The notes under the pieces: model-generated
What the model was told of the DNA's origin: nothing
Seen by the model: the letters and a program-made list of their open reading frames with translations, nothing else
Database searches by the model: none
In this document: positions 1 through 61,793 of the stretch, in pieces
Layout: each line of letters begins with the position of its first letter
Position numbering within the stretch: position 1 is the first letter of the stretch
Translations under genes and position numbers: made by a program
Assembly (NCBI GenBank): GCA_964036045.1
Contig: OZ038381.1
Span: 64,294,242 to 64,358,241, forward strand
Direction: 5' to 3'
Origin: Eutreptiella sp. 'Long Island Sound 2002'
Lineage: Eukaryota; Euglenozoa; Euglenophyceae; Eutreptiales; Eutreptiaceae
Length of the DNA: 64,000 nt

Positions 1-37
1 ATGTGGGCAAATCTAATTCCACAGAGAAAGACGCAAA

Positions 38-2035
38 ATGCCACTTCGATCCAGAAAATCCTTAACCGATCGAATGATAGCAGAAGTAAGCAAAGGAGCA
101 GCAGCACTACGAGAGGTATGCGCGGCAGAACCAGCATACCAAACAGCAGACGACCTGTGGAAAGTAATCAAACGAAACGACCTGGCAGCGCAAATATTTT
201 GAACATTTGCACAGCGACTCAGATTCAACAAAAGAACGTGCCACAGTTTACCAGCAGCTAAAAGGCAGGAGGACAAGCGCTGGGTGCGCATTTTGCGACA
301 GGAGGGCTGGAACCTGTACCTGTTGATGCGTCAACGGGCAGTACCAAACAGGAAAAAACCGGGAAACAAAACAGGGTACCTAACGCAAACAGAAAGACGA
401 ACAAAAGTACGACTTGGGCAAGCAGACGCTGCCGCAGATACAGTGGACGAACAGGCAGCAGCAGCACTTAAAGCAACGTGGTCACTGGTGCTTTCGTCGT
501 GTTGCGTGCTGTGGATAGACAACTGGTACCGGGCACAATACACGACACACCCAGACAAAAGTGACCGATCACAAAACTGTACTGCAATGGCAGTACTTCA
601 ACTGAAGCAGAGGCCCATGTATTGGGCAGGACATCCAGCCATTGAGGACCTGGCAGCACGGATAACGACAGTCGCAAGGGCTCTGCAACAGCGTGAACAA
701 AGAATCCCCCAGATTTTGCGTGACATGGGGTATGCAGATGGGTGTGCACCAGACACCGGAAACCTGAGAGCACCGTTGGATGTGAGGAGGGATGCAAGGA
801 CTGTGCAGGCACCGGTGTGGCGCCCGTTTGCCCTGTCAAAAGAAAAGGTAACTGGTGGTGTTGGTCTGTTAAACTTGTTCCACTTTGCAAAGGACGTAGC
901 CCAAAAGACAAAAAGAGTTTTACCGCTGTTGGTTGACGAAAACATACACTACAGGATACTAAAGTTGTTGTACGGTGCCAAGAACCAACGATGGAACATG
1001 CGTGCGTACCTGCGTTACGTGCCTGTAGTTTACGGTGTCTGGCATGCGTACAAGTTCGTTGTTAGTCATACTTTTCGGGTGTTCTGGCCTATTCTAACCT
1101 ATCTACGGAAAGGTCTGCTACGACCTGGTTCCACCATACTATCATACCCCAAACTGATAGTTATGGAAAAAACTATTGCTGCGCTGATGCTTGCCACACC
1201 CCGAATACTACGCCCGTATTGGCGCAAGGCACAAGCTGCAACCGCGATCAGTGGTCGTGACACTGCGCATGCCAACAGGGCAGCAGTGGCAAACGCAGTT
1301 CTGCATTTGTTGTCGGAATGGTGCCCGTTGTTGTTGTACTTGGGCCACGCGGTACGGGAATGCAACTGGTCAGGGGAAAACAACGGTACAGGGTCACGAG
1401 CTCAGGAGGTGTTGCAGTTGAGTTTGTGTCTGTTGAGGAGGCTGCGTCGAGGACTGTGTGAGACCGTACTGAAGTGCGAGCGCACGATCATGTGCACATT
1501 GTTGTACAACAGCAAGTGGCACCAGGACCTGCCCGGTCAGGCACACTCAGAGGAGTTTGGAGAACGGATGTTGAGCAAGTTGGTGCGGGACAAGGCGAGA
1601 AACACGGGCCCTGTTACTGTTGAGCAGGTGGAATACCATTACTTGTTACGAAAGGTTGGTCCTGGTGGCAATTGCTCGGGGGTACAAAACAATCCCAAGA
1701 AACTGGTACACAGAATGCGACAACGACTGACAAGATTTTTGGCGACAGACCAGATTTGCATGGCCTATGTGGAATGGGAATCGGACAGAGTCAGCAGGGT
1801 TGCAACTTCGTGGCCGCGGAGGTTACCGAGATTTCCACCCTCACCTACACGACCCCCTAGTTGCGACCACTACCGGCTACTTGGTCACAGCGTACTGAAT
1901 GCCCTCATTGACCACAAAACAAATCCCACCAACCAACTGAAACGGAAACTGGATGCTGTTGTGGGGCGGAGAACAGATATGGATGCCGATAGACAGGAAG
2001 CAACAACACGCAACGTGCGGCAACGCTTGCGGTAA
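38..2035 (+). CDS. ORF1: transposase-like protein of unknown family, broken by one in-frame TGA
   Basis: About 665 codons are open from the ATG at 38 to TAA at 2033-2035, except for a TGA at 200-202. The downstream ATG at 284 lies in the same frame, so a 583-residue product could also start there. Counting from 38, visible motifs are WIDNWYR (Asp about 161), PLLVDENIHYR (Asp about 300) and GVWHAYK (333-339). A D, then D-x-N/L, then W/L-H-x-x-K order is seen in several DDE transposase groups, and the protein lies inside a TIR element. A transposase role is therefore inferred, not proven. The C-terminus is basic (KRKLD, RQRLR). The stop codon overlaps a GTAACT that could be a splice donor: a GT-AG segment 2032-2086 contains the element's palindrome. 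If that is spliced, the true C-terminus lies further on. The TGA may mark decay or an unrecognised intron. Confidence 0.55.
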
Positions 2036-2046
2036 CTGACGCCCGC

Positions 2047-2068
2047 AGTGCGCGAGGCCTCGCGCACT
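2047..2068. repeat. Transposon palindrome, copy after ORF1
   Basis: Perfect 22-bp palindrome just after the ORF1 stop codon, inside a possible 55-bp GT-AG segment (2032-2086). Confidence 0.8.
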
Positions 2069-2103
2069 AAACGTTACGAAAAACAGGTATGCAATGCGAT
2101 GTC

Positions 2104-2125
2104 AGTGCGCGAGGCCTCAGGCACT
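2104..2125. repeat. Transposon palindrome, variant copy
   Basis: Same palindrome with two changes in the right arm (CCTCAGGCACTG). It follows directly on a second GTATGC donor-like sequence at 2087. Confidence 0.75.
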
Positions 2126-2284
2126 GAGTAGTTTGCCAAGTGCCGTAGATTAAGTCACAACAAAGACAGTTGTGGGACAGATTTGCGAAAACGACCTGCA
2201 AAATACCGTTTCGACTGATTTCAGAGTTCAAATGACCGTGTTTCATGTCATGCAATTTGCCCTTTTGATGTATTCTTTGGCATC

Positions 2285-5047
2285 ATGAGTGAACCAGGGT
2301 CGCCAGAACGTCCAGCACCAGACGCAGAGGCCATGGAGTCGTCACCAGGGACCGACCAAGTGGACACGCCGAAGAAAGGACGCAAGAAGAAGGGTGTGAA
2401 GAAGCCAATACCGGAGATGAAACTCACAGTCGACGTGCAAGAGTGGCTGCGGCAGGAGAATGGTAAAGCCGTGAAGGTAAAGATTGCTGAATTGAGGATG
2501 GACAAGACCGAGGAGCGCGGACAGATCAGATCCATCAACTATGACGACGTTGCCAGGAAAGTGACGGGATACCAAGCACTGCCACCAGCTGGCCCGTTGC
2601 GCATAACGGTGTGGGAGGATAGTGGTATGACTCGCTTCGCGTTCGATCGAAGACGTTTCTTCTCTTTGCTCCGGTACATGATTTGCTTTGCAGATGGCTC
2701 ACTTTACGTTCTGAATGGTCAGCATGGCACAGAAACATGCAGAAAGATTCAGGAACTGCGTCTCGGAGAAGGCAAAGGATTTGGTGACGGGCAGGAGTTT
2801 TGCTACTTTGACATTCTGAAGTACGAAACGCCTTGGAGGATCGGGGCCAAGGTTGCAGGATTGCAACAAGCTGGCAGCCAGTCTGTGACGTGGATTCCGC
2901 TATTCGAGGCGCTGGACAACATGTTGTTGTACATTGAGGACCAGAAGCGGGAAAAAGAGCGACAAGATTTCAAGCGGTTCAAGCTTGCTGTTGTCCAGGC
3001 TGCCGTCAACTCTGCGTTTCTTGCACCCGAGGTTTTGGAGGAAGCAGGACACACAGTATGTATTCGTGTATCGCACAGCTACAGTGCGCGAGGCCTCGCG
3101 CACTCCATGACACTGTTTTCTCTCGCAGGAGTCGACATCCAAGAACTGGAGGGACATCTTCTCCCTGGCGTATTACTGCGGTCGTGAGGCGGTTACTGGC
3201 ATGAAGAACCTCGAGAATAAGGGCAGGAAAGAGGAAGTTACAAGGAATGCCTTCAAGAAGCTGGAGGGGCTGCATCTACCGAGCTTTTTGCAGAAGGTCT
3301 GTGCGCACATGAACCTGAAGGCCTCGACCTTAGGCACCACCCAGAACTACATTGACGCGCAGATTACGGATCAATGGGTTATTTTCCATCTTGACCATCC
3401 GGACAATAAGCAGTATGTCAACAAGACCGCAGGTATGCGTCAGTGTCGCAGCTCCAGTGCGCCAGGGCTCGCGCACTCAACCACTGTTTTCACATCTGTA
3501 CAGCTGCCGATGCGAAGATCCGAGCAGAAGTCGCAGCACTGGGCACGCCGCAACTGAAATATGGTCTGGGAAATTGGGGTTACTGGCCGGACGCAACAAG
3601 TACGAAGTACCGGTCACCGTGGCCAAAATGGAAGACGTTGACCAAGGCACCTCTGTGGCGGACTGGGGACAAGGGCGCACCTCCATTACCGCAGACGCTG
3701 GCCGTGCGGAAACAACTGCAAAGGAAGACTGAGGCAGCATCATTGGAACCGTCACAGACACAGCTGAGTACTGGCGATGTGATCAATGTCTCTAAGCAGG
3801 ACGAGCAAGGGAGCAAATTCTCTTTGACGGCCTGCCCTATTGAGGATATCCAAGAGACACCGCCAGCCCGTTCCCAGGATCTACAGTGCCCGTTGTGGGT
3901 CATCAACGCTGGTCTTTTCGTTGAATATGACACTGCAGGATTTGTTCCGAAGTGGCTTTTCGATGTGATGATGCTGGGGAAAGACGTCATTTTCTATGGC
4001 GAGGCTGATGTTGTGTGGTGTATTGGCCGCGACATACAGAGGCTCTGGTGTATGGAAAAGGACAAGGATCCAACCACAGTGCCCCTCTACCATGTTCGGT
4101 TGCCGGTATACTCTTGGTTATCGGGTCCCGTGACCAGCAGTACGTATCAGTTCGACGAGCACTGTATGTGGATCGGAACAACGAGTCGCTGGGATGAGCA
4201 GGTATATCTGCTTCTTTCGCCTGTTACGATGCCGTTGTGTGCGCGAGGCCTCGCGCACTGCTGCCTCCGTTATTCGTCTTTATACATCACATTTACAGTT
4301 TCCGAACTATGTGTCGTATTCCGCTGGACATTTCGAAGAGATGCAGACCAAGAACCTTGGTGGTTTCATGCCTCTGATTCACGTGCTGTGGTACCTGGAC
4401 AAATATCTTTTGGGCAGTGGGTATTCTGATGCAGTGGTTGTTGTGGACGACACGCCTGCCATGGCCGCAAAGATTGCGATGTCCGACCTCCATACTAAAG
4501 TGGCGTTTCTGGCTGTGTCAGCGATCAAGCAAAAGGACCTTGGAAATGCCGTTGGAGGTGCTCTGCAGTATGCAATCATCATGCCGTACATGTTGGAGGC
4601 TGATCAGACGGAGCAGGGAGCAACAGCCGGACAGCTGCAACTTTGGATACTCAAGAAGAGTGGCTTCAGCGTGGCATTCCACTGTGGGTTTTGGACAGCA
4701 AGAAGCAGGCAAAAGGAAAAGAGAAGGAATCGGACAAGCCCGCGGATTCAGACGACGACGATGCCGCCGAGGAGGAGGAAGAAGACGATTCAGAGCAAGT
4801 ACTGGAGACCCAGCAGAAGCGCAAGCGGGCACCCGCCGGTCACTTCGATGCAAGCCCCGAATCTGGTAAGGAACAGCCGAAGAAGAAAGCGAAGACTGCT
4901 GCCACCGCTAGTGCAGAGTTCAAGCTGCCCTCGCATTCTGGTGCCCAGCCGTCTTGTGGTACCGTTGCCTCTCCAAGTGGGACAAGTGCGGTGGCAAGAG
5001 GCCTGGGTTCCAGGTTGGCCAAGGTTGCGGGACCGAAGAAAAAATAA
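2285..5047 (+). CDS. ORF2: multi-exon transposon protein with NGQH motif and acidic/basic tail
   Basis: Exons are 2285-3055, 3129-3432, 3504-4201 and 4299 to about 4642. The tail 4643-5047 is in another frame, so one base is missing near 4600-4645 or a further splice is unseen. The three introns are GT-AG and the reading frame is kept across each junction, which is strong evidence that the gene is real. The product would be about 840 residues. It has a basic N-terminus (KKGRKKKGVKK, residues 30-40, nuclear-signal-like), then LYVLNGQHG (about 140-148), which recalls the D/NGQHR loop of ParB- and DGQHR-type domains. A central WGYWP / SPWPKW region follows, and the tail has a run of Asp/Glu followed by KKKAK and PKKK. 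I do not recognise the family. It starts 249 bp after ORF1 on the same strand and is probably the partner protein of the transposase. Confidence 0.6.
3056..3128 (+). other. Intron 1 of ORF2 (73 bp) with palindrome
   Basis: GTATGT donor and CTCGCAG acceptor; removal joins two open exons in phase 0. A perfect copy of the palindrome (core GTGCGCGAGGCCTCGCGCAC) occupies 3083-3104, 24 nt before the acceptor, directly ahead of the pyrimidine tract. Confidence 0.82.
3433..3503 (+). other. Intron 2 of ORF2 (71 bp) with palindrome
   Basis: GTATGC donor and TGTACAG acceptor; the codon is split after its first base and the frame is restored exactly. A slightly changed palindrome (GTGCGCCAGGGCTCGCGCAC) is at 3457-3476, 26-27 nt before the acceptor. 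Confidence 0.82.
4202..4298 (+). other. Intron 3 of ORF2 (97 bp) with palindrome
   Basis: GTATAT donor and TTTACAG acceptor, phase 0. The palindrome core is intact at 4239-4258. Reading through instead gives a Cys/Arg-rich stretch unlike the flanks. Confidence 0.8.
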
Positions 5048-5090
5048 GTCACCATTAACCCAAGTGTTTCGCCTCTTTTTGCAGTCATGT

Positions 5091-5110
5091 GTGCGCAAGG
5101 CCTCGCGCAC
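5091..5110. repeat. Transposon palindrome downstream of ORF2
   Basis: GTGCGCAAGGCCTCGCGCAC, one change from the core, 43 bp after the ORF2 stop and just after a TTTTTGCAG acceptor-like run. Confidence 0.8.
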
Positions 5111-5247
5111 TCGCCTTCGACGCGAATGCAATTATATGCCCTTAAGGGCTTGTACATTTTTGCCGAGCTTTTGTTTCAGCGTTTGTATGTTGTGCACTTC
5201 CTGTCCTGTTTTTTTTTGCCTTCTGTACACAATTGCTTCCATGACCT

Positions 5248-5273
5248 TGAGTGCGCGAGGCCTCGCGCCCTCA
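5248..5273. repeat. Transposon palindrome in 3' region
   Basis: The 26-bp form flanked by TGA...TCA, with one change in the right arm (CGCGCCC). Confidence 0.8.
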
Positions 5274-5584
5274 GGGACATAAAAAAGCAATTTATTTCGC
5301 AGGACAAACATAGGTGCAACTGGAGACCCGCAGAATGTCGTTTTTGAAAATGAGCTCCCGAACAGGCACGCACCAGTTGGGTTTTGAAATACAAAAATGA
5401 CAAGATTGGTAAAACACACCCTTCAGTTCAGACAAAATAAGAGTTTACTTTAATAAACAAAAAGTGAAAAAAAACAGCAAATTGGGTAAAATTGTATTTT
5501 TTTGGTAGTATCTGAGTCATGTGTGCTGCAAATGTCCAAACAAAATAGTTTTTCGGGCGGTCATTTTTTAGGTCCTTCTCTTCC

Positions 5585-5613
5585 AAAAGGGGGTGCAGTT
5601 TGCCCGGGCTAAT
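5585..5613. repeat. Right terminal inverted repeat of the two-gene transposon
   Basis: AAAAGGGGGTGCAGTTTGC... ending GGGCTAA matches the right TIR of the 1.2-kb relative (AAAGGGGTTGCAGTTTGC...GGGCTAAG). A further TTTTTTAGGT motif precedes both at a similar place. Confidence 0.7.
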
Positions 5614-22084: not shown

Positions 22085-22118
22085 CTTAGCCCATGCAAAC
22101 TGCACCCTGTTTTTCACC
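22085..22118. repeat. Left TIR of small transposon
   Basis: Starts CTTAGCCCATGCAAACTGCA and ends TTTTTCACC; inverted match to 23261-23296 with few differences. Confidence 0.85.
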
Positions 22119-22280
22119 TCAAGGGCGGCATTTGTGTGCAAAAAAAAGACGCGCAGTTTCCGCGCGTTTCCACCTGAAAACTGAGAATTAAAAAACGGAG
22201 GAATCTCAAATATATTTTTTTAGGCTATCAGCGGAATGCAAGTAGTCAGAGGTATGAAAAAAAGGTTTTTTCTGGCATGT

Positions 22281-22306
22281 TGAGTGCGCAAGGCCTCGCG
22301 CACTCA
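22281..22306. repeat. Transposon palindrome
   Basis: 26-bp form flanked TGA...TCA with one central change (GCAAGGCC). Confidence 0.82.
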
Positions 22307-22771
22307 ATTATGCAGAATGTGTATTTCCCAATGGTCCTGAAAAAACAGTATTCCATGCCAAATGAGGCTCTGATGTCTTCATGGGTGCCTCATGGTGTAC
22401 CGTTTGGGTCACGTCAGCAGCAAGAGTGGTCAATTAATGGACGTTTTGTACACGCCATGCACCATGTAAGGTGTAATAGATCTAAAAACGCGGGTTGCCC
22501 TCAGTGTTGCTAGACACACGATTTTCAGCCAGTTTACCTGCAAATGAGGTGCGCAGCCTCCCATCTTTTGGGGCTGTACAACAGTTTGTCAGAAGCGCTA
22601 GGGCACAGGACCTATCAAGCAAGTGCTCTAGAGGAGGATAGTGTAATCGCTACTCTTGAGCTCACTGTTTTCACAGGATTCCAAAAGGGAGGAATCTCAA
22701 AAAGCCTTTTGAACGCTATCGGCACAATGCAAGTAGTCAGGGCTATTCAAAAACCCATGCTTCTAGCATGT

Positions 22772-22797
22772 TGAGTGCGCGAGCCCTCGCGCACTGA
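22772..22797. repeat. Transposon palindrome
   Basis: 26-bp form; changes at the centre (GAGCCCTC) and outer right arm (CACTGA). Confidence 0.8.
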
Positions 22798-22927
22798 GTG
22801 TTCCGCTGTGCAAGTCTTTAACCCATATTGAATCTTGCAGTTTTGCTTTTGCTCCATCCTTGCTTCATGCCACTTTCGATGTCAAAAAGTCATCTCAAAA
22901 AAGCCAGGAAATCTCACTCCAGCTGGC

Positions 22928-22953
22928 TGAGTGCGCGAGGCCCCGAGCACTCA
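22928..22953. repeat. Transposon palindrome
   Basis: 26-bp form with changes in the right arm (GGCCCCGAGCAC); flanks still pair (TGA...TCA). Confidence 0.78.
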
Positions 22954-23260
22954 GCCTCCCATAATAAGTATTTTTTCATGTAAACATGTACAGGATGTGT
23001 GAACAGCGCCCATCTTTAATATTTTTCCAGGCGATCCAAAAATTGGTATTCTTCAAATTAGCCAACAAAATTCTTTTTCGGGGAAAATGACCGGTAAACC
23101 CTCTGATTCTGGACTAAAGAATGGTTACTTGACCCCCCTAAATACAGGAAAAAAATGGGCAAAACTGATGAGAAATGCATTTTTCGGGAGGGTTTGAAAA
23201 ACACTATTTTCAAGATGGCAAAAAAAACTATTTTTTTAGGTGACAAAATCTAGGTGCTTA

Positions 23261-23296
23261 GGTGAAAAAAAGGGGTTGCAGTTTGCGTGGGCTAAG
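23261..23296. repeat. Right TIR of small transposon
   Basis: GGTGAAAAAAAGGGGTTGCA then GTTTGCGTGGGCTAAG (adjacent bases overlap the first string's end), inverse of the left end. Confidence 0.85.
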
Positions 23297-35461: not shown

Positions 35462-35950
35462 TCAATTCGGCCAAGCAGGAATACATGTGACCACCAACCT
35501 GTCTGGTGGGGCCCTCGTACGGTTCGGGCGCTGTAAATCAGCGGCCGAACTCGAAGCTTGTTCCTCATTTGGCTCCTGGGCTGGCCTGACCGCAGGAGGG
35601 GAGATCGACGGATCAGCCCTGGAAGGTGGCTGCTGAGGGCCGTAAAAGGCTGGATCTCGATTCACCACAGGTCTTTTTCCGTCGCTCTCCACCTGTCTGT
35701 CGGGTTTCGACAGACAGTCTGTCAGGAGTACGCCAATTTCGGGGTGCTTCTTGAGGAAGTCGATGAACCCCTTGGTGTACCCATGGACAAAAGAATGGGC
35801 TGGTTCCCAGTTGTTGTGACTCGAATCAAAGCCCCTCCACTCACATAGAAATTCCCATTCGCCCTTTTCGTCACGTCTTGCTTCTAAAATCCTCTTGAGT
35901 TCGTACTTCCCCCCTTCGATGACCCGATCGAACAAAATTTCGAAGTCCAA
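35462..35950 (-). CDS. E1 chromodomain tail
   Basis: YELKRILEARR, FLCEWRGF and NNWEPAHSF match the chromodomain pattern (Y-x-V/L-x-x-IL, x-V-K-W-x-G, W-E-P). In chromoviruses this domain directs integration to chromatin marked by histone methylation. It is read in a frame one base off the integrase. The last 80 residues are polar and unrecognised. Confidence 0.82.
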   Translation of the reverse strand: MDFEILFDRVIEGGKYELKRILEARRDEKGEWEFLCEWRGFDSSHNNWEPAHSFVHGYTKGFIDFLKKHPEIGVLLTDCLSKPDRQVESDGKRPVVNRDPAFYGPQQPPSRADPSISPPAVRPAQEPNEEQASSSAADLQRPNRTRAPPDRLVVTCIPAWPN

Positions 35951-37020
35951 AAAAGGGGTTTAACCCGATCCTTGGGGGAGGGGATCTCTCTCTTGAGGCG
36001 ATCGCCCGAAACTTCAATTTCCCTGCTGACATCCACACGAATCCTCCACCTGTTCTCACCTAGACGCGCTGTAACAGCGAATGGCCCCTCCCACAAGGGA
36101 AGAAGCTTATCATCTCCGTCCAGGGTGGTTTCGGATTTTCGAAGCCAAACTCGATCATCGACTTCAAAATTGTGCGGGTTTTTTCGGCCTTGATTCTGGA
36201 CCCAAAGCCAGTCAGCTTGATGCTTATCGATTAATTTCGGGACAGTTTTTTCTGCTCGTTGGATTTCGTCCAAAAACAACGAAGCATCTTTACAAGGGCG
36301 AGGATTATTCAACGGCATGTTCCACCAACACTTCTTTCGTCCAAAGACAATTTCATTTGGAGAAAGGCCATGGTACAATGGCGTGTTGTGGTAACGGCGA
36401 AGCAATGCGAAGAGAACTTCAAGCCAATGGAAGTCCTTCTCACTGGCGAGCTCCTTACGAAGCATATTTATAACAGAGCGGCCGGCTTCTTCGCCAGGCA
36501 ACGCCCGATGTGAGTGGATTTCACATCTCAGGTGGTGGATTCCAAGGCGAGCACATAATTCCTTCCACCATTCGGAGGTGTACTCTTTGCCTGAGTCCGT
36601 AACCACCTCGGATGGGACGTCCCAACCTCCCATCCAGGTCTGCGCGCACCATTTGGCGGCAGCCTTGCCAGTCATTGACTCGACGTTGCAAGGCAACACC
36701 TGAATGTAGCCAGAATGACGGCATTGTATAAGGAGCACTCCATTGACCTTTTTGTTGGTCCAATGGCACTCTTCGTCGTCGAGTTCACCAAGATGGAAAA
36801 AATCACTGGTGACTCTGTTAAAGAGGCGCTCCGGAATAGGGTGTGGCCTCAGATGGCCGTGCTTCTTCGCGCTGGGGGGCGTCGAGACAGCACATTGGGC
36901 ACATCCGGCGGCTACTTTCATACAATGAGTATATAGCCGTGAGCCGAACAACCTATGTTCAATCATCGACCATAATCTACGGCCATGTGCGTGGGGGGAC
37001 TCCCATTTGTGCCACCAGTT
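35884..37020 (-). CDS. pol: E1 pol part 3: integrase
   Basis: Open frame from 37020; the ATG at 36966 is inside the domain. A His/Cys zinc-binding region (HAHG then CMKVAAGCAQC) is followed by the DDE core: Asp in TSDFFHL, Asp in VVTDSGKEY and Glu in LPGEEAGR. The end has a GPY/F-type module (LWEGPFAVTARLG). The frame then shifts by one at an A/G-run near 35945-35960, into the chromodomain frame. Confidence 0.85.
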   Translation of the reverse strand, partial: NWWHKWESPHAHGRRLWSMIEHRLFGSRLYTHCMKVAAGCAQCAVSTPPSAKKHGHLRPHPIPERLFNRVTSDFFHLGELDDEECHWTNKKVNGVLLIQCRHSGYIQVLPCNVESMTGKAAAKWCAQTWMGGWDVPSEVVTDSGKEYTSEWWKELCARLGIHHLRCEIHSHRALPGEEAGRSVINMLRKELASEKDFHWLEVLFALLRRYHNTPLYHGLSPNEIVFGRKKCWWNMPLNNPRPCKDASLFLDEIQRAEKTVPKLIDKHQADWLWVQNQGRKNPHNFEVDDRVWLRKSETTLDGDDKLLPLWEGPFAVTARLGENRWRIRVDVSREIEVSGDRLKREIPSPKDRVKPLFWTSKFCSIGSSKGGSTNSRGF

Positions 37021-37962
37021 TTACACTCGGGGGGCCAGGGCGTCTGGTACGCAGAATTTACCCTCCATCCACAGCTTCCCCCCGTCCAACGAATATTCAG
37101 AATAAATTCCATCCTTGTGAGCATTTTTGGATTTGAGATTCTCAAAGACCTCTTTAAACATGGAATCATGCAGATAATCATTCGTCCAGTCACGGATGAT
37201 AAGGGAATCTTTCGGCAGGGGTGGAGTTTTGGCCGGATCTCGACGCTTAATGCCCTGAATCAACCGAAATCCACTTACAGGTCGGGTATACTCGAACCGT
37301 TTCACACTCCCTGAGGAGGGATCGGTGACTTTCTCCACGACTTTCAGTGATTTCGTTATAATCTCATGGGCATGCGCCGGATCTGAGAAGGCCGTGATGT
37401 CATGGCACGGTAATGCATGCTGTTTAACAGAGCATTGCATGCATTCACGTCGAATGAGCTTTTTTTCTTCTTGATCCCACTCGATTACGACGTGGCGGTC
37501 GTGCTCCGTACCATGGATGTTGGTACTTTGCAGCCCCTCTGAAGCGGGGTAAGCCCATCGGCTCAGAGCATCCGCTACCGTGTTGTGTTTTCCAGGCAAA
37601 TACGACACATGGAGGTCAAACAGACTGAGAAATTCGTGCCATCTGGCCCGTCGACCAGCTGGGCTCGCGAGAGTATCAATGTGTTCGGTGGCCCAATACT
37701 CCAGAGATCGATGATCCGTTAGGACCTCGACTCGATTGGTGCCAACCCACGATTGGTACTTCTTCAGAGCGCAGATTATGGCATAAGTCGCTTGCTCATT
37801 GGGTGACCATTGCATCTGGCGTGGAGCTAGCTTCCGAGACCAAAATGCAAGAGGGTAATGATCACCTGTGGCTTCATCAACCTGTTCAAGGACAGCTCCG
37901 ATCGCGTACCTAGAAGCGTCGGTTCTTATGTAGAAGGGTCGGTCGAATTTCGGTACATGCAA
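37021..37962 (-). CDS. pol: E1 pol part 2: RNase H and connection to integrase
   Basis: In frame with part 1 after the UAG. The RNase H signature is complete: IRTDASRYAIGAVLEQ, a Glu in the NEQATYAIICAL helix, LTDHRSLEYW and the GKHNTVADALSR end. It stops at TAA 37021-37023; the integrase follows in the same frame (NWWHKWESPHAHGRR). An ochre codon between RNase H and integrase is not a normal boundary in Ty3/gypsy elements and is probably decay. Confidence 0.87.
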   Translation of the reverse strand: MHVPKFDRPFYIRTDASRYAIGAVLEQVDEATGDHYPLAFWSRKLAPRQMQWSPNEQATYAIICALKKYQSWVGTNRVEVLTDHRSLEYWATEHIDTLASPAGRRARWHEFLSLFDLHVSYLPGKHNTVADALSRWAYPASEGLQSTNIHGTEHDRHVVIEWDQEEKKLIRRECMQCSVKQHALPCHDITAFSDPAHAHEIITKSLKVVEKVTDPSSGSVKRFEYTRPVSGFRLIQGIKRRDPAKTPPLPKDSLIIRDWTNDYLHDSMFKEVFENLKSKNAHKDGIYSEYSLDGGKLWMEGKFCVPDALAPRV

Positions 37963-37986
37963 CGTGGCGACTTCGCAGAGGGCCGC

Positions 37987-40515
37987 CTACAAGTGATGGA
38001 AGGCCTCCTCGCACTCGTCAGTCCACTTGACACGAACCTTGGAACCTGCCCTGCCCGCATCTCTCCCTACCTTCAATAGTTCGGTGAGGGGGGCAGCAAA
38101 TTTGGCATAATTCGGCACAAAAGTGTGGTAAAAATTGCAACAACCCAGGAATCCTCTCAATTCCGTGATCGTCTCAGGGCGCTTCCACTTCTGAATAGCG
38201 ACGAGCTTCCCTGGACTGGGTCGTCGGGTGCCATTCTCAAGGAGAGAAGCACAAAATTCGACTGATTTTAAAAATAGTTTTCCCTTCTTTTGCCCACAAA
38301 TCAGCTGATTGGCATCAAGAATGTCCAAAACCTGGTTCAGCTGCTTTTCATGTAGGGCCACCAGCTCGGCTCCGGTCAGTCCCTCCCCCTCTGTCGCGAT
38401 GATTATGTCATCTGTGTACACACTCACGAAGGCACGAAGCTCAGGATGAGCTGTAAAAAGCACATCCTCCATCATTCTTTGAAAAAACGAAGGGGCGTTC
38501 TTCAGGCCCATGGGCATGACCGTCCACTGGACTGGGCCACATGGCGTGCACATACAGGTGAGAGGTCGGCTGTCCTTCCTCAACGGCATTTGGTGAAAGC
38601 CGTGACGGAGATCCAGCACAGAAAACAAACGACCTCTTGCCCTCTTGGCGATTTCCTCCTCAATGAGGGGCAGGGGGTGTGAATCCGCCTTGCTTTCGGC
38701 GTTGAGGTTGCGAAAATCAACAACCATTCGCCAACCATCAATAGTATTCTGGTCTCCAGGCGGCGGCTTCGGGACTGTGAAGGGTGCACAGCACCACTCG
38801 CTGGTCATACAACCCTCAAGCCAACCAAATTCCCTGAGATTTCTCTCGATTATTTTTCTGAGTATCTCATGTTTCTGTCCATGGTTCTCATAAGGACGCT
38901 GTTTCTTCGCCTTGTACCCTTCACGAAGCTCGATGAAGGCTTCACCGAACTGCCCACGGACAGGGGGGTTTTTGATCAACTTCCCCGAAAGGGTTGTGTC
39001 CTTCCGTTCCTCAAAAATCTTGTCTCTTTTCTTGGAACACAACTCAGTGTCCACCTGATCGCCAGGAATTACTGTCGAAAAAACTTTGGCGATTTCTTCG
39101 GCCTTGGCAGGAAGAATCTTCTTGCGGATGTCCCTAAAAAGGTCAGTATCAACTGCCTCTTGAAGATAGGTGGGTCGAGTGTCAACATTCCAGAGATTCC
39201 CTTCGTGATCCAGCTCCTCGAAAGGATCTATGAAAGCTTCCACACGGGGTTTTTCATAAAAAACTCTGAATTTGCGGCGCGAAGAAAATTTTTTTGTCGT
39301 CCGTGCGCCGTAGATTCTTTTGGATGTAGATCGTATTGGGGAAGGGGGAGACGAGGCGGATCCATTTGACGTTGGATCACCTTGGGCATCTGACGGACAA
39401 AAATCAGAAAAAATGGATTCATCATCAGTACCACGCTCAACCTCAGATTCAGACCCAACACAGGAATCAGTACTAGAATCAGCAGAATCAGAGTCAGAAA
39501 GCTTTCCATCCACCAGGAATGCAAGCGAACTCCAGGGCCGCTGTGGCAGGGGACCTGTGTCGTCCCTGGCATACAGCTTAATCTTCCTGGGAAGTTCGAT
39601 GTAATCTACACAAATGTCTTGCAATTCCTGAAACCAACGCTTGTCGTCCCACAAGTGCACAACTAAAATCGCCTGGGTTTTATCTTGCTTGAATTTGTGG
39701 ATGACCTGCTGGATTAAGTGAAACGGAGGATTAATCCATAACTTCTTGTCCCATTTATGGGTCCAAGCGCCGCGAAAGTGCTTGTCAAAGCGCTTGTTCT
39801 CGCGGTTAGCAAAGGCTTCACACTGTGGCCAAAAGGAATGGTGTTCATAAAAATATTCACAAATTGTATCGCGCCATTTGGCGACAACTCGGTAGGATGA
39901 AGAGTGCCAGCGCGAAGGGCGTCGTGGCTGGGAGTCCCTACAAAGACATTCTAACTCTCGGGAGTAATCCGCACTCCCATTCACCTCTGCAATGGTGACA
40001 TCTTCGCCAAACTTTGGTGTAACCTTTTGCTTCAAAAATTCTTCTGCACTTTTAAACCCTGCGTGCAAAAAACGAAATTCAGGACGCTCCAAGGGACCTG
40101 ACTCCAGCAAAAAACAACGCCGATGACCTACGGGCGCCACCCTGTTCTTGCGAAGCCAAGGATGGCCCAAGTAAAGGTCATACTTTATGTCGGCACGATA
40201 GAAGTAGTCATCCTTAAGGATAACTTCCTCCACATTGCCATCTTCCCAAAGGTCTTGAGCGACCAAATGAGTTGATATATAACAACCGCGTTGCCCACCT
40301 GCGAGAGAATGTCCAGAAACTCCCTCGAGGGTAACAGGATGAGGCGAATCAAACACGCAGTCGTCAGGCAAAAAAGAATTGGATTGGAGATTTACCTCCG
40401 ATCCATTGTCACACAAACAAGTGGCGAGGTGGAAATTGCCCTTGCAATCAGAGACCCACAGCTTTGTGACAAACTGACGGGCCCTGTGCTTGGACTGTAC
40501 ACCAACCTCGTCCAC
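37987..40515 (-). CDS. pol: E1 pol part 1: protease, Dam-like domain, reverse transcriptase
   Basis: Same frame as the gag C-terminus; open from after the gag UAG (40644). Counting from the ATG at 40515, the protease has CDNGSEVNL with Asp about 36, in place of the usual DTG. A Dam-methyltransferase-like domain covers about 215-300 (EAFANRENKRF, LWINPPF at 259-265, AILVVHLW). RT covers about 540-740 (MVVDFRNLN, VLDLRHGFHQMPL, YTDD at 700-703). It ends at TAG 37987-37989, after which RNase H continues in the same frame, so the stop is a nonsense mutation or a readthrough site. All RT catalytic residues visible here are kept. Confidence 0.88.
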   Translation of the reverse strand: MDEVGVQSKHRARQFVTKLWVSDCKGNFHLATCLCDNGSEVNLQSNSFLPDDCVFDSPHPVTLEGVSGHSLAGGQRGCYISTHLVAQDLWEDGNVEEVILKDDYFYRADIKYDLYLGHPWLRKNRVAPVGHRRCFLLESGPLERPEFRFLHAGFKSAEEFLKQKVTPKFGEDVTIAEVNGSADYSRELECLCRDSQPRRPSRWHSSSYRVVAKWRDTICEYFYEHHSFWPQCEAFANRENKRFDKHFRGAWTHKWDKKLWINPPFHLIQQVIHKFKQDKTQAILVVHLWDDKRWFQELQDICVDYIELPRKIKLYARDDTGPLPQRPWSSLAFLVDGKLSDSDSADSSTDSCVGSESEVERGTDDESIFSDFCPSDAQGDPTSNGSASSPPSPIRSTSKRIYGARTTKKFSSRRKFRVFYEKPRVEAFIDPFEELDHEGNLWNVDTRPTYLQEAVDTDLFRDIRKKILPAKAEEIAKVFSTVIPGDQVDTELCSKKRDKIFEERKDTTLSGKLIKNPPVRGQFGEAFIELREGYKAKKQRPYENHGQKHEILRKIIERNLREFGWLEGCMTSEWCCAPFTVPKPPPGDQNTIDGWRMVVDFRNLNAESKADSHPLPLIEEEIAKRARGRLFSVLDLRHGFHQMPLRKDSRPLTCMCTPCGPVQWTVMPMGLKNAPSFFQRMMEDVLFTAHPELRAFVSVYTDDIIIATEGEGLTGAELVALHEKQLNQVLDILDANQLICGQKKGKLFLKSVEFCASLLENGTRRPSPGKLVAIQKWKRPETITELRGFLGCCNFYHTFVPNYAKFAAPLTELLKVGRDAGRAGSKVRVKWTDECEEAFHHL

Positions 40516-40644
40516 TACAACAGAAGGATCCGTTGCCGGATCCAGGGGAGAGGAGACAAGCGACCCTACATCAAGTAATGGTCGAGAAGGAATCTGGGGA
40601 TCATGCCTGAAATCGCCTGGGGAGGGGCGATTTTTGTGGCTCCC

Positions 40645-43600
40645 CTAGGCGTTCTGATCTCCAGTGGCTGCGTTAACATTATGGACACACCCTGATTCGT
40701 CGACCCACTCATCTTGGAGCGGATCATCTGCTGGATTCAAGGCATTTAATTCATAATCTCGGTCCGCATCGGACACCTGATCTGCACCTGAGAACTGATC
40801 CACACGATGGTTGCCCTTTCCACGTCCACGGCCACGGCCGCCGGATGATGGACCTCCACCCTCGCCACGCCCTCTGCCCTTACCAGAGGAAGGGGTTCCC
40901 GAAGGATTTCCCTTACCTTTACCCTGGAATCCTAGAGCATTTCCCTTGTTTGCACCGGATTGAGGGGGTTGGCCTGGATTTCGATTTCCGCCTCCGGCGT
41001 TGCTATTGGGATTTTTCTGGCCGTTCGGCTGCCAACCGGAGCCGGATGGAGTCCGATTTCCTGTGCCTTGGGACCCGCCAGGGCCTCCAGGATTTTTGTT
41101 TCCACCAGAGGGGGTCGGATTCCCTTTTCCAGCCTTCCCACCGTGCACCTGTCTGTCATTCCTGTCTGAATTCTGCGAATTACTGATATTCTCACCAATC
41201 ACCTTGTGATCGTAAGGAGACCATCGGTGATTATCAGTAGAATGCGACTTAGCTCGGTTCGTAGAACCTAAAAGAAGGCAGATGCTACAGTGCTGCTGAA
41301 CATTCCGGGTGTCATTCACCTTTTTGTTGCCCTTTTGGGCCCCATTTTTGGTGTTTTGCTGGGTATTCTTGTTTCCCCCAAGACCCTCATGGAAATTCTG
41401 GTTGGCGGCGTCGGCGAGCCGCTCAACCTCCTCCCAGAGTTCCTTCGGGGTGTACGAAAACACCAAGTTTTTGGCCTTCTGGCGATGGCCATGGAAGCTG
41501 ACTCCCCTGTTGAGGACCTGGACAAACAGGTCCCGATCCTCGTGCTCATGAAACTTTATTTTCCACGTCTCTTCGGTGAATTTCACCTTAGAAAAGGACG
41601 TGGGGGGGCACTTTTGAAGTGCCTCCCTGACAGAAAAACTTGTTGGCAGAGGCATCGAAGCCTTCCACCTCCGCCCACCAGGTCTTGACCTTTTCTTCGG
41701 ACTGTTTGTTCCGAAGGGTGGCGGCAGTTTCTGAGGGGATCTTGTCAAAAATCAGACTTTTCAGCTCGGCACTAGAAAATTTTTCGCCTGAATGTTCAGC
41801 TTCTTCCACTAAATTCCAGAAGCGCTGTTTTTTGTCTTGCACTTCGTGCAAAATTAATCGCGAGAATGAAGGAAAATTCTTCAACATTTGGTGGTAGTGG
41901 TCCTCTGGCAGCCGGGATCCACGTACCTCCAACTGTTCCCACACCTCATCAAAGGTAAGGGGGGAACTTGTATCCTCGCGATCACTCCAAGTCCTGAGCC
42001 AAGTGTTGGCCGGCGGTCCCTCAAGGCAATCCAAGAGGGCCATCAGGAACTGATCATCTTGGAGTTTTTTGAGTCTTAACCCACAGTTTGAATTCCCGTT
42101 GGAACTGAGGCCAACGTCGGGGGTTCCTATTATACTTCGGTTGCTTGGCAACCTGACGAAGTCGCAAGGAAGTAGGGTTAAGAAGCGAATCAAGCCCAAC
42201 ACCGGCCGTAATGGCAGACACCTTGGCGGCATCATTCGCCACACCAGCTCCGGCGAGGGTCTGGGCGAGCAACAGCTGGGCTAAGGTATTGGAATCAGCA
42301 GCAGGAGGGGCAGTACGGGAGGCAGTTCGCTTGGCATTCTGAGCCTCAGTCCTAGCCTTCGCCGTCCTACTCTCAGAACGAGAGATTTTAACCCTTTCCT
42401 TTAGCTTGGTCCTGCTGATCCTTGCATCGGTGGTCCTGGAGTCCACCGAAGGAGCAATTGAAAAAGTTTCTGTCGCCTCCTCCGATGGCTCTGTTGCTTG
42501 TCCCACCGATGAGGCGCCCTCAGACCGCATGTGCGTCTTGAAGAGATTTTTTATTCCCAGCGTTTGAATGATGAGGTGCATTTGATCTTTGAGCTGTTGG
42601 AGCTCAGCATCTCGCTGGAATCTGCAGGAGCAGTCGGCAGGACAGTACATGCCGTGTCCTGAAGGGCCTGAGCAGGCTGTCGGACCGCTGATCTCGGTGG
42701 TCCGCAGCCAGGAGTCCACTTGGGGAGCTCCTTCAGCCCTGATTTCCAGGCTTGCCTGCCTGGCCGCCTCTAAAATTTCCTCCTCAACCGCGGCGGCTAG
42801 ATCGTCGCGGATGGAAACAGGGGGATGAGGGGCGGAGGGCCCGGGAACAGGTGCCCGGACCTTCTCCTTCGGGAAGGGGCATGCCTCCCAGATCTGCAAA
42901 AAAATGGCAAAAGAGATATCTCCTTGAGAACGCCACCACATCCTGGTATTATTTTCGTCCTGAAGGAGGAAAAAATATTCCGTTAAAAAATCAGAGGCGA
43001 TTCTTTCTTGTTCGATCAGCTTAGACGAGGCTAAGTAACAAAGGGCCTCAAGGGCCTCAAGGTTACGGGTCACTTCTGGGGACAAATGGTCGCCCCAGTG
43101 TGCCCAAGAGGCTGGTCGATTATAGCTAGGTACCTCACGTGGACCGCCCATCTCAATGTCGTTCAGATCGGCGTCAATGGTCTCAAATGTTGGACATCCG
43201 TAAGGAAGGTTGGTACCTGCCAGCTCCGTAAGCTCCACCAGAGCATTGCCATCGTCGTAGGCCGGCGGATTCCAGCTGCTCGATGGCCAGTTTCGACTGG
43301 GATGATGGTAATCTGGGTCCCCACAGCTGCTGATGTGCGCCCTTCTTGGGCAGCTTGGACTTGCGCAAGGCATTTCTCTCAAGGCCTCGTTCGCACAGCA
43401 CCAAGGCAGTGTAATCGTTACTTCTCCAGAAGCGGCGGGGTCTACGGGGCCGTACTGGGGAGCGGGCTGTGGATGGGATGCCAATGAAGCAACATTCAGG
43501 TAGCCTCTGCTACCATGAAAGTGCTGCCCTAGGTCGTGGATGGTGCCGGAGGGCTCAGGGCCGGCAAGACCAGGGGGGCAGGCACGCGAGGAGTCGACCT

Positions 43601-43679
43601 GAACGCTGCTGTTGGGGGCAGAACCGGATACACGGACACCAACGGAGGCAAGAGCGGCGACAACGGAGGCAAGATCCAT
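40645..43679 (-). pseudogene. gag: E1 gag (two frameshifts), ending in UAG
   Basis: The frame starts at 43679 inside the 5' LTR and is open for 541 codons to 42054. The sense frame then moves near 42060-42240 and again near 41590-41750, ending at TAG 40645-40647. The gag-type core spans the first shift: PKYNRNPRRWPQF, then LLDCLEGPPANTW and YHQMLKNFPSFS. A zinc-binding-like CSICLLLG...H...H segment and a long Gly/Asn/Pro/Arg-rich nucleic-acid-binding tail follow. The N-terminal 300 residues are Pro/Ser-rich and unlike other gags I know. The third frame is the same as pol, separated only by the UAG. Confidence 0.8.
43504..43515 (-). promoter_or_regulatory. Primer-binding site of E1
   Basis: TGGTAGCAGAGG on the minus strand, one base after the LTR, is close to the TGGTATCAGAGC site of plant elements primed by initiator Met-tRNA. 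The gag frame reads straight through it (His-Gly-Ser-Arg-Gly). Confidence 0.82.
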
Positions 43680-44050
43680 GCTGATTGTTATCCGGCAAAA
43701 AATCCCAGTCTATGAAGAAAATTGATGCGGATATTCCTAAGTACATCTGAGTGTCCATATCTATCTGAAAAGATTTATATAAATCCGATTGTGAAAAAAT
43801 ATTTGGCCGATCTGGCTCGCGCACGCGCGTCAGCGGCAATTGGCGATTCTGGGTAAATGATCGGAACGCGGCGGATTTACAATGAATGGACCGCGGAATC
43901 AGATCCGGCACATCAGAAATATATAGGTCTCATCCTGAGACTGAGCTGCGGGGCGGCGATTCCGCCGAAGCAGAGAAAATGACCAAAATGTAGCCAATCT
44001 GGGGCAGTTCTGCGAAAATCTGAGCACATGGGGGTTAGCCGCACTTACAC
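43517..44050 (-). repeat. 5' LTR of E1
   Basis: 534 bp. Read on the minus strand it has a TATA-like TTTATATAAA at 43774-43783 and, about 95 bp further on, the gag ATG at 43679. The LTR therefore contains the first 54 codons of gag. Confidence 0.93.
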
Positions 44051-59268: not shown

Positions 59269-60543
59269 TCACGGTGCTGCTGCAGCCACCAAATGGACCA
59301 ACACGTCCTTGACATCCAAGGAAATGTTCTTTCTTCTTAGATAATCCATCCAGACCGTGGTATATCTCGGCACAAAGCTGCTCCGAGGCTGCCACGAATC
59401 CCTGGATGCGGCGAATCCCTTCCAACGGACTTTATATAGCCTCCCCCCAGGCGTCCCCGGGTCCGGCATGTCCATCAGGATCCTCTTGGCAGTGAAGTCG
59501 TCGTCCTGACCCTCGTCATCCGAGTCCACATCGCCGGCTGTGAACTCGAAGGTGACGGGGCGTCCGCTGGGGTCTGGTGCTCGGGGACGGAGCTGGGTAT
59601 GGTCGCGGTCCAGGATCTCGGTATCCCCCACACGAACCGCATACACATCCTGCCCGACCTTCCGAACGATTACCCCCGGAACATACCAAGACGCCTGCCG
59701 ATGCCTGGACAGGACAGCCTTGTGGTGCCGCTCCACCCATACGGTGTCTCTGAGAGCATATTTCTGGACTTTTCCCTGCTTGAAGTACTTGGCCGTCTTC
59801 TCATGCTCGTCCTGAAGTGCCTTGGACACCTTGGCCGCCGTGTCGTCCGCCTCAGCCATCATAGCACTCGCATCCCGGGCCACTTTGCCACGGTTCAACC
59901 ACGGGAGAGTGCGTGACACTCGAATCCGTAGGAACAGGATACGGTGGGGCGACAGTCCAGTGGGCCCTGGAAGGTCGTGGTACGCCTGGAGAACTCTCCA
60001 CAGCGAATTGTACCGATTCCGGCCCGGTTCGTCAATGTGCAGCTGGCGGAACTTTTTGAACATCTGCCGCCCGGCCACCTCAGCCCGGCCATTCGACTGG
60101 CTGTGGTACGCCACGGTCTTGGCATGCCGAATCCCCATGTGCGTGCACATTGTCTTGATCCACGTCCCCACAAATTGACTGCCCCGATCGCTGCAGATGA
60201 CAGCTGGGACATCAAAAATCGTCAGCGAATGCCTGATCATGGCATTAGCGACGGTCTTGGCCTGCAGACACACTCCATGCTTGTCCTTCCTGTCTTTCTT
60301 CTTGAAATTCTTGCGGGGGACCACCACGATATACCCGCTGTGCCTATCCACCGCCAGGATGACACAGTCGTAGGTCTCTCCTTCCATGGTGACTTCAGGC
60401 ATGGCGAATACATCCATGGCCACGGACCGCATAGGGGCCTCCGATATAGCTGTATACACCGGGTTGCCCGCTGTGGAATGGTTGGGGCTCTTCGTAGCCC
60501 GACACACGGCGCAGTTGCTGCAGTACATGTCCAGGATGGCGTA
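59269..60543 (-). CDS. pol: E3 integrase and chromodomain
   Basis: Continues in frame after TAA: ILDMYCSNCAVC completes the HHCC site. The DDE core is Asp in VAMDVFAMPE, Asp in VICSDRGSQFVG and Glu in SNGRAEVAGR. A Trp-containing C-terminal module (WVERHHKAVL, ASWYVPGVIVRKVG) is followed by an acidic hinge and a chromodomain (TAKRILMD, YKVRWKGF, DSWQPRSSF). The best preserved part of E3. Confidence 0.87.
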   Translation of the reverse strand, partial: YAILDMYCSNCAVCRATKSPNHSTAGNPVYTAISEAPMRSVAMDVFAMPEVTMEGETYDCVILAVDRHSGYIVVVPRKNFKKKDRKDKHGVCLQAKTVANAMIRHSLTIFDVPAVICSDRGSQFVGTWIKTMCTHMGIRHAKTVAYHSQSNGRAEVAGRQMFKKFRQLHIDEPGRNRYNSLWRVLQAYHDLPGPTGLSPHRILFLRIRVSRTLPWLNRGKVARDASAMMAEADDTAAKVSKALQDEHEKTAKYFKQGKVQKYALRDTVWVERHHKAVLSRHRQASWYVPGVIVRKVGQDVYAVRVGDTEILDRDHTQLRPRAPDPSGRPVTFEFTAGDVDSDDEGQDDDFTAKRILMDMPDPGTPGGRLYKVRWKGFAASRDSWQPRSSFVPRYTTVWMDYLRRKNISLDVKDVLVHLVAAAAP

Positions 60544-61793
60544 TTACCCCGCTGGGAACTTGAAGCGCCACTCCAGGTCCTGCTGCATCTTGTCCCGACC
60601 AGCATGCATGAGCTGGGCGTTATGCCAGTGGTCAATGAGCTCCTCCATTCGGTTCTCAGGGACCAATAGCCTGTCCTTGAGGAATAATTCATCCCCATCC
60701 TCGGTCAAGCCCTCAGGCCATTCGTCGTCCGACGGGGCGCTCATGGCATTCCAGTACCTGCTCCAGTGGTCGGATGCCGCATAGTCATCCGACCAGTCCT
60801 CTGTCAGCACCGACCTGACTAGCTCTACTGGGGCCACCATCCATTGCTCGAGGGTTTCCTCTCGAATAGCTTGGACTCGGGGGCCCCAGAAATTGGCCAG
60901 GTCTGTACGATTTGCAATCACCACAAAGCACTTGACCCCCTCTTGCTCTATGGCCTTCTCCATCTCGATGATGCGCTTGGCCTCCTTGGTCTCCTTGGCG
61001 TCCCCATGGCTGGATATGTCCATCCATGCCTTGCCTGCGGGGTAGGCCCATCGACTGAGGCAGTCTGCCACAGTGTTGTCCTTCCCCAGGACATACACGA
61101 CGCTGAGGTCAAACTTGGCGAACGTCTCATGCCATCGGGCCCTCCTTGCTGCCGGTCCCGAGGGGGTGTCGACATGCTCCTAGGAGAATTGTGCCAGCTC
61201 TGTAAGGACTGATGGTCCGTACAAACCACCACCGGTTGTAATCCGATGTGGCCAGACCACTTCCTCAGCGCACAAACAATGGCGTGCGTCTCCTTCTCCC
61301 TCGCGGTCCAGGTTCGAAATTGGCCCTCGGCCAGGATCCGGCTCCAAAACGCCACGGGTACGTGCGACCCGTCGTCCCGGACCTGCTCCAGGACTACCCC
61401 TACAGCATAGTCCGAGGCGTCTGTCCGTAGCACGAATCCCTTGTCCGGGTCCAACAGGAATAGCCCCAGCTGCCCCAGGAGTCGCTCTTTCAGGCGGCTG
61501 ACCGCATCCTCGGCCTCAGGGGCCCAGGCAAGCGTCTTCTTGCTCCCCTTCCGGCCATCGAACTTGCCCACAGTTTGTGCAGCGGCCCTGACAGTTCTGC
61601 ATACATCTGGACATAGCCCGAATAGTAATTGCGAAACCCCATGAAGGATCGGAGTTCGCTGATGGTCTGGGGCTTCTCCCAGTGGTGCAGGGATGCCAGC
61701 TTCCCGGGCATGGGACGGCATTGCCCGTGACCAACCACGTGACCCGCGAACTCCACTTCCTTCACGAAGAGTGAGACTTTGGTGGGCTTGCAC
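60544..61793 (-). pseudogene. pol: E3 RNase H and linker (frameshifted)
   Basis: AWAPEAEDAVSRLKERL, VLRTDASDYAVGVVLEQ, EKETHAIVCAL, VVCTDHQSLQSW, then a shift near 61180 and LGKDNTVADCLSRWAYP. The zinc-binding histidines of the integrase (DHWHNAQLMHAG) come before TAA at 60544-60546. Confidence 0.83.

Follow-up and report, generated by a model that had tools for sequence, protein, structure and literature searches.

In the En/Spm (CACTA) transposons, subterminal repeats are the cis-determinants and the transposase is accompanied by a second protein, TNPA; one account also describes motifs that differ among subfamilies of one genome and raises the co-evolution of motif and binder (PMC2613891). 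A similar plan, with a transposase, a second protein and many short repeated and putatively cis-acting motifs, is found in a DNA transposon of the euglenophyte Eutreptiella sp. 'Long Island Sound 2002', here called family A. One copy enters a stretch of 64,000 nucleotides of contig OZ038381.1 (assembly GCA_964036045.1, forward-strand positions 64,294,242–64,358,241), hereafter the window, and two diverged relatives, families B and C, occur in the same genome. The three families differ from En/Spm in that their ends read CTTAG rather than CACTA, their target duplication is 5 bp rather than 3 bp, and their motif is a long palindrome whose sites also lie between the two genes and inside introns of the second. 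In addition, the model predicted for the first gene product (ORF1) is nearest, among the chains compared with VIA-align, to the P element and Hermes transposases.

Both hAT elements and the P element duplicate 8 bp of target sequence, unlike the 5 bp seen here, and a family search returned no match to a hAT or P-type protein family. The second gene (ORF2), with four inferred introns, further separates these elements from Ac/Ds and Hermes, and we know of no palindromic array in the P element. Transib elements share the 5-bp duplication but have termini beginning CAC, which differ from CTTAG. In the brown alga Ectocarpus, a ParB-like and methyltransferase accessory protein is the proposed binder of the Sola1-1 element to which it belongs, and that report also cites ParB-like accessory proteins for green and red algal transposons (PMC12477816). 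There, too, a protein other than the transposase is the candidate binder; ORF2 has no ParB match in the tests run. Introners are described as repeated DNA associated with introns (PMC9860276). Here, in contrast, the introns are common to diverged families, and the repeat lies inside introns and outside genes and is not itself the intron. Repeated cis-motifs of a two-gene DNA transposon are already known, and their extension into introns may be new; titles and abstract openings, from a literature with few subscription journals, contained no description of such arrays of palindromes within introns of a transposon. It is, in our judgement, quite likely that the palindrome is a DNA site that differs by family and is bound by the machinery of the transposon itself, cis-acting for transposition and also used internally.

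A palindrome recurs in noncoding DNA of a two-gene transposon

The 22-base palindrome AGTGCGCGAGGCCTCGCGCACT has ten matches at three or fewer mismatches in the window, against a mean of 0 and a maximum of 0 in 100 dinucleotide shuffles. Seven matches start within the large family A element (2047, 2104, 3083, 3456, 4238, 5090 and 5250) and three within a short relative at 22085–23296 (22283, 22774 and 22930), and the rest of the window holds none at this threshold. These are the places named in the original prediction, so that its claim of a recurrent motif, found also outside introns and in the short relative and nowhere else in the window, is reproduced. Its description of the palindrome as perfect fits some copies only: two of the ten 22-mers are perfect (2047 and 3083) and positions 4239–4258 form a perfect 20-mer within the site at 4238–4259, whereas the other eight 22-mers carry one or two mismatches (two at 3456, in the second of the introns then reported).

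The window contains the right 5,613 bp (1–5613, plus strand) of a 6,757-bp copy that starts 1,144 bp further left (L009:7099) and has the target duplication TTCTA; better kept copies are ~6,860 bp long, with terminal inverted repeats CTTAGCCCACGCAAACTGCACCC and 5-bp target duplications. The portion beyond the original reader's view adds three palindromes, giving the copy ten sites in total: three upstream, two in the ORF1–ORF2 gap, three in ORF2 introns and two downstream. ORF1 (38–2035, plus strand) needs no intron and has an in-frame stop at 200–202 in this copy; in the relative P0003 it is open, intronless and 665 amino acids long. The gap sites follow at 2047–2068 and 2104–2125, 57 bp apart (55 bp in family B). 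ORF2 (2285–5047, plus strand) comprises five inferred exons (2285–2624, 2694–3055, 3129–3432, 3504–4201 and 4299–5047). Near 4699 it lacks ~195 bp, and its frame is broken there; the missing coding sequence is present in each of the 14 fetched copies spanning this point (letters viewed in one). The last two sites lie 3' of ORF2 at 5090–5111 and 5250–5271, ~512 and ~353 bp from the right end. Within 2087–2150, the second gap palindrome is preceded by ACAG/GTATGC and its family B counterpart by ACAG/GTTAGT; because ACAG/GT-type letters precede the site in both families, it may sit in an intron of the ORF2 5' leader.

A DNA search located family A at 40 or more places (at least), of which the 19 best besides the window copy were fetched. 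Both ends were recognised in ten of these 20 copies, nine with ten sites and one (L020) with nine; the site counts leave out the remaining ten, which are cut or have no recognisable end. The flanks of the ten loci with both ends contain no copy of the 16-bp core at two or fewer mismatches, and extra copies at the other ten loci belong to nested or neighbouring B-type stretches (L014, L022 and L024) or to an apparent second A fragment (L024). Exact matches in the 2.28-Gb genome number 3,608 for the A 20-mer, 3,979 for a B 20-mer and 564 for a C 18-mer, and the reversed pattern has 0 copies in each case. The genome search proposed in the original prediction was carried out in part: the first 50 A 20-mer places listed come from a single contig, and 46 of them lie within 7 kb of a further copy, whereas four are isolated. 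Since the null for a count of A-like spacing was loose (0.42), only clustering was used. In viral contigs the 16-bp core occurs in 28 stretches, at one place each, and was taken as background.

Related families have a similar layout and switch the site sequence as a set

Element B was located at L077 through P0051, which is 45% identical to ORF1. Its ORF1 and spliced ORF2 are both open, and it has terminal repeats CTTAGGCGGCTCAAG and a 5-bp duplication. It carries ten sites with the core TGCGCGAGGCCTCGCGCA at two or fewer mismatches, of which three precede ORF1, two lie in the ORF1–ORF2 gap, three in introns of ORF2 and two downstream; the 18-bp core is as in family A and the outer bases differ. 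A second B copy has eight sites in the fetched stretch, at positions identical to those of the first. Element C was reached through P0097 (37% identity over half of ORF1) at L078 and L079, and has 11 sites of a shorter palindrome, TGCGAGGCCTCGCA, at one or no mismatch (nine exact), with three upstream, three between the genes, two in ORF2 introns and three downstream. A second C copy also has 11 sites, including four in the gap between the genes, and lacks the intron 4 site because of a deletion. Spliced ORF2 of family A is 35% identical to that of B over 673 residues and 24% identical to that of C over 617. All three families end in CTTAG...CTAAG, with 5-bp target duplications such as AACTT, AATAT, ATATT, GTTCA, TCACA and TTGTT.

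A set of sites changing together within an element is the outcome expected if one protein reads them all, as we propose. Gene conversion could also keep the sites of an element alike, but most flanks adjoining the 18–22 bp are without likeness. The 18-bp core common to A and B, despite different terminal repeats, might instead suggest sites collected for a host chromatin, replication or transcription factor, with no reader encoded by the element. Within this one genome, however, family C has a different palindrome, which would require a host factor to recognise different sites by family, and neither the rest of the window nor the flanks of the ten loci supply a match; we regard a host-protein site as unlikely. 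Three families in one genome, with the same gene order, homologous introns, a similar layout and a different site sequence, amount to a natural experiment in which co-evolution between a binding protein and ten scattered sites can be tested directly.

Two further arrangements were seen in these families. In the ORF1–ORF2 gap of the C copies L078 and L082, palindromes stand 56–61 bp apart, three in one and four in the other, as if a unit had been duplicated. In L014 and L024, 1.7-kb gene-less family B elements are nested in family A copies (window-equivalent 1048–1053 and 3168–3173), and one palindrome of these nested elements caps a longer hairpin that is itself nearly perfect.

ORF2 introns persist with or without the palindrome

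Family A ORF2 has four inferred introns on the plus strand: intron 1 (2625–2693, 69 nt), intron 2 (3056–3128, 73 nt), intron 3 (3433–3503, 71 nt) and intron 4 (4202–4298, 97 nt). The last three are those originally reported and, as claimed, each holds one palindrome (3083–3104, 3456–3477 and 4238–4259), with 24, 26 and 39 nt between its end and that of the acceptor; intron 1 was added in the present analysis. Splicing of all four is suggested by continuing homology and by shared positions and phases, the introns of the three families occupying common alignment columns (one shifted by one column in C) and having equal phases. Searches for ORF2 relatives, with 8,000 candidates scored in each, yielded five and four relatives, one of the latter four already known; several include intron-derived letters from gene prediction and so carry no evidence on splicing.

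The palindrome is distributed unevenly over these introns: it is present in introns 2, 3 and 4 of A, in 1, 2 and 4 of B, and in 2 and 4 of C. In family A, both splice signals of intron 1 are retained by seven of the eight copies viewed; this intron has no palindrome (best match to the core 9 of 18 letters), and its B counterpart holds one. In intron 3 of B the palindrome is shrunken to AGTGCGCCGCACT, a string that reads like the A palindrome minus its middle and is identical in the second B copy; in C, intron 3 is palindrome-free. Homologous introns thus persist without the palindrome, and because they are shared by diverged families while the palindrome varies inside them, they are likely older than its present pattern.

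The same comparison bears on the suggestion that the palindrome is a small mobile unit, similar to an introner, which inserted into the elements and created the introns. The left flanks of the A intron 2 and 3 sites are indeed alike (best of 90 comparisons, z 3.9, with 0 of 300 shuffles as good), a likeness for part of which splice signals may account. Set against this are the homologous columns and equal phases of all four introns, with or without a palindrome that comes and goes inside them although ORF2 is only 24–35% identical, and the similar order of sites in families whose ORF2 is 35% identical. Intron birth by such insertion, as put forward in the original prediction, is scarcely credible. 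A repeat found in several introns therefore need not be an intron-making element.

A second suggestion was that the palindrome forms a pre-mRNA structure that governs how the ORF2 transcript is spliced or processed, tying splicing to element activity. It can form a hairpin with a 9-bp stem and a 4-base loop (-14.8 kcal/mol), its copies in family A stand 24–39 nt from the acceptor end, and introns 2 and 4 bear it in all three families. Yet it is missing from one of the four introns in A, one in B (intron 3, with only the shrunken AGTGCGCCGCACT) and two in C (introns 1 and 3), and the sites outside ORF2 introns make up seven of ten in A, seven of ten in B and nine of 11 in C. Gene-less elements retain the palindrome as well, and pairing alone would suffice for a hairpin, with no need for identical letters at ten places. 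As a general role, an RNA hairpin is thus very unlikely, although an added RNA effect limited to introns 2 and 4 may exist. The comparison of A, B and C introns accordingly led us to reject both the insertion of palindromes as a source of introns and a hairpin with a general role in splicing.

Sites near the element ends and in gene-less relatives

Distances were measured from the site centre to the element end and are given in the order A, A short, B, C and B short, the last (two copies seen) being reversed in orientation for the comparison. The last site lies 353, 356, 358, 352 and 385 bp from the right end, that is, within 352–358 bp in four of the five elements, and the next-to-last at 512, 512, 466, 490 and 491 bp. 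The first site is 207, 209, 206, 278 and 216 bp from the left end. A short is the 1,212-bp relative at 22085–23296 (plus strand), which has a near-identical terminal repeat and the target duplication ACAAT; gene-less relatives of both A and B retain palindromes.

By blastn, the similarity of A short to full A is confined to the terminal repeats and to the palindromes plus at most ~15 adjoining bases. A sensitive comparison of the stretch between terminal repeat and site, judged against dinucleotide shuffles, remained at shuffle level in seven of ten pairs on each side, the exceptions being A/A short (z 3.6), A/B (3.3) and A/C (2.7) on the left and A/A short (4.1), A/C (2.6) and A short/B short (2.3) on the right; in a cruder, global comparison z reached 5.4, for the pair A/A short. 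Because some end stretches are more alike than shuffles, some shared descent of the ends is likely. Within family A, a comparison of how far sites and flanks have diverged was little informative.

Taken together, the position of sites near the ends and between the genes, their retention in gene-less relatives, the near-constant end distances in most elements compared and the concerted change between families make a DNA site bound by the element's proteins, the other option of the original prediction, the best-supported reading of these sequences. The same sequence at ten noncoding places, switched as a set, retained by gene-less elements at similar distances from the ends and dispensable in a given intron, looks like a DNA site read by one protein.

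Candidate proteins and a proposed mechanism

ORF1 would be a transposase by its predicted fold: the model resembles an RNase H-like transposase with a helical insertion, the arrangement that serves as the criterion for hAT. Foldseek, run with this model against the PDB and against viral models, returned no match at E ≤ 0.001, and transposases stood apart only in the comparison with VIA-align; no ORF1 relatives were found in viral contigs. The ORF1 relatives P0076, P0081, P0083, P0098, P0103 and P0104 (window 203–2032; 32–43% identity) are encoded on short contigs from elsewhere (jgi, lgn), and the group therefore probably extends beyond the Eutreptiella genome. Part of the ORF2 N-terminus may resemble a ParB/Srx pattern, all sequence tests of which were negative or weak: ORF2 had no ParB match in Pfam, NCBIfam or PDB sequences, nor by hhalign to phage N15 SopB, a weak test with a single SopB. 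We favour ORF2 over ORF1 as the putative reader of the palindrome, by analogy with TNPA of En/Spm and from the charged tail of ORF2.

In the mechanism that we propose, an autonomous element carries about ten sites, all in noncoding DNA. Those near the ends (mostly ~207 bp from the left; ~355 and 466–512 bp from the right) would be cis sites on which the transposition complex assembles, and a cis-acting role of this kind would explain why gene-less elements keep sites near set distances. The internal sites, placed in the gap before ORF2 and in the ORF2 introns where the long coding region leaves no other room, would lengthen the array and probably allow the binding protein to influence how the element is expressed. 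This suggests that introns offer a selfish element a place for DNA signals within a long gene. A fuller version is tentative and, taken as a whole, rather doubtful. In it, the transposon would shelter binding sites in the introns of its own second gene, and an element-encoded reader would co-evolve with some ten sites dispersed over the element. Because some of these occupy the promoter-like gap and introns of the reader's own gene, binding would link copy number or transposition to ORF2 expression. The families would then constitute a separate superfamily, marked by CTTAG ends, a 5-bp duplication and a transposase accompanied by a four-intron accessory gene.

Other features of the window

Between 8036 and 21287, seven inverted repeats are built on CCGCTAGGCTCCGTTTTTGTGGG, several of them ~730 bp apart, which suggests a tandem family of hairpin-bearing units. 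On the minus strand, long open frames occupy 35887–43709 and 59272–61179, and the starts of their peptides resemble, by eye, LTR retrotransposon pol.
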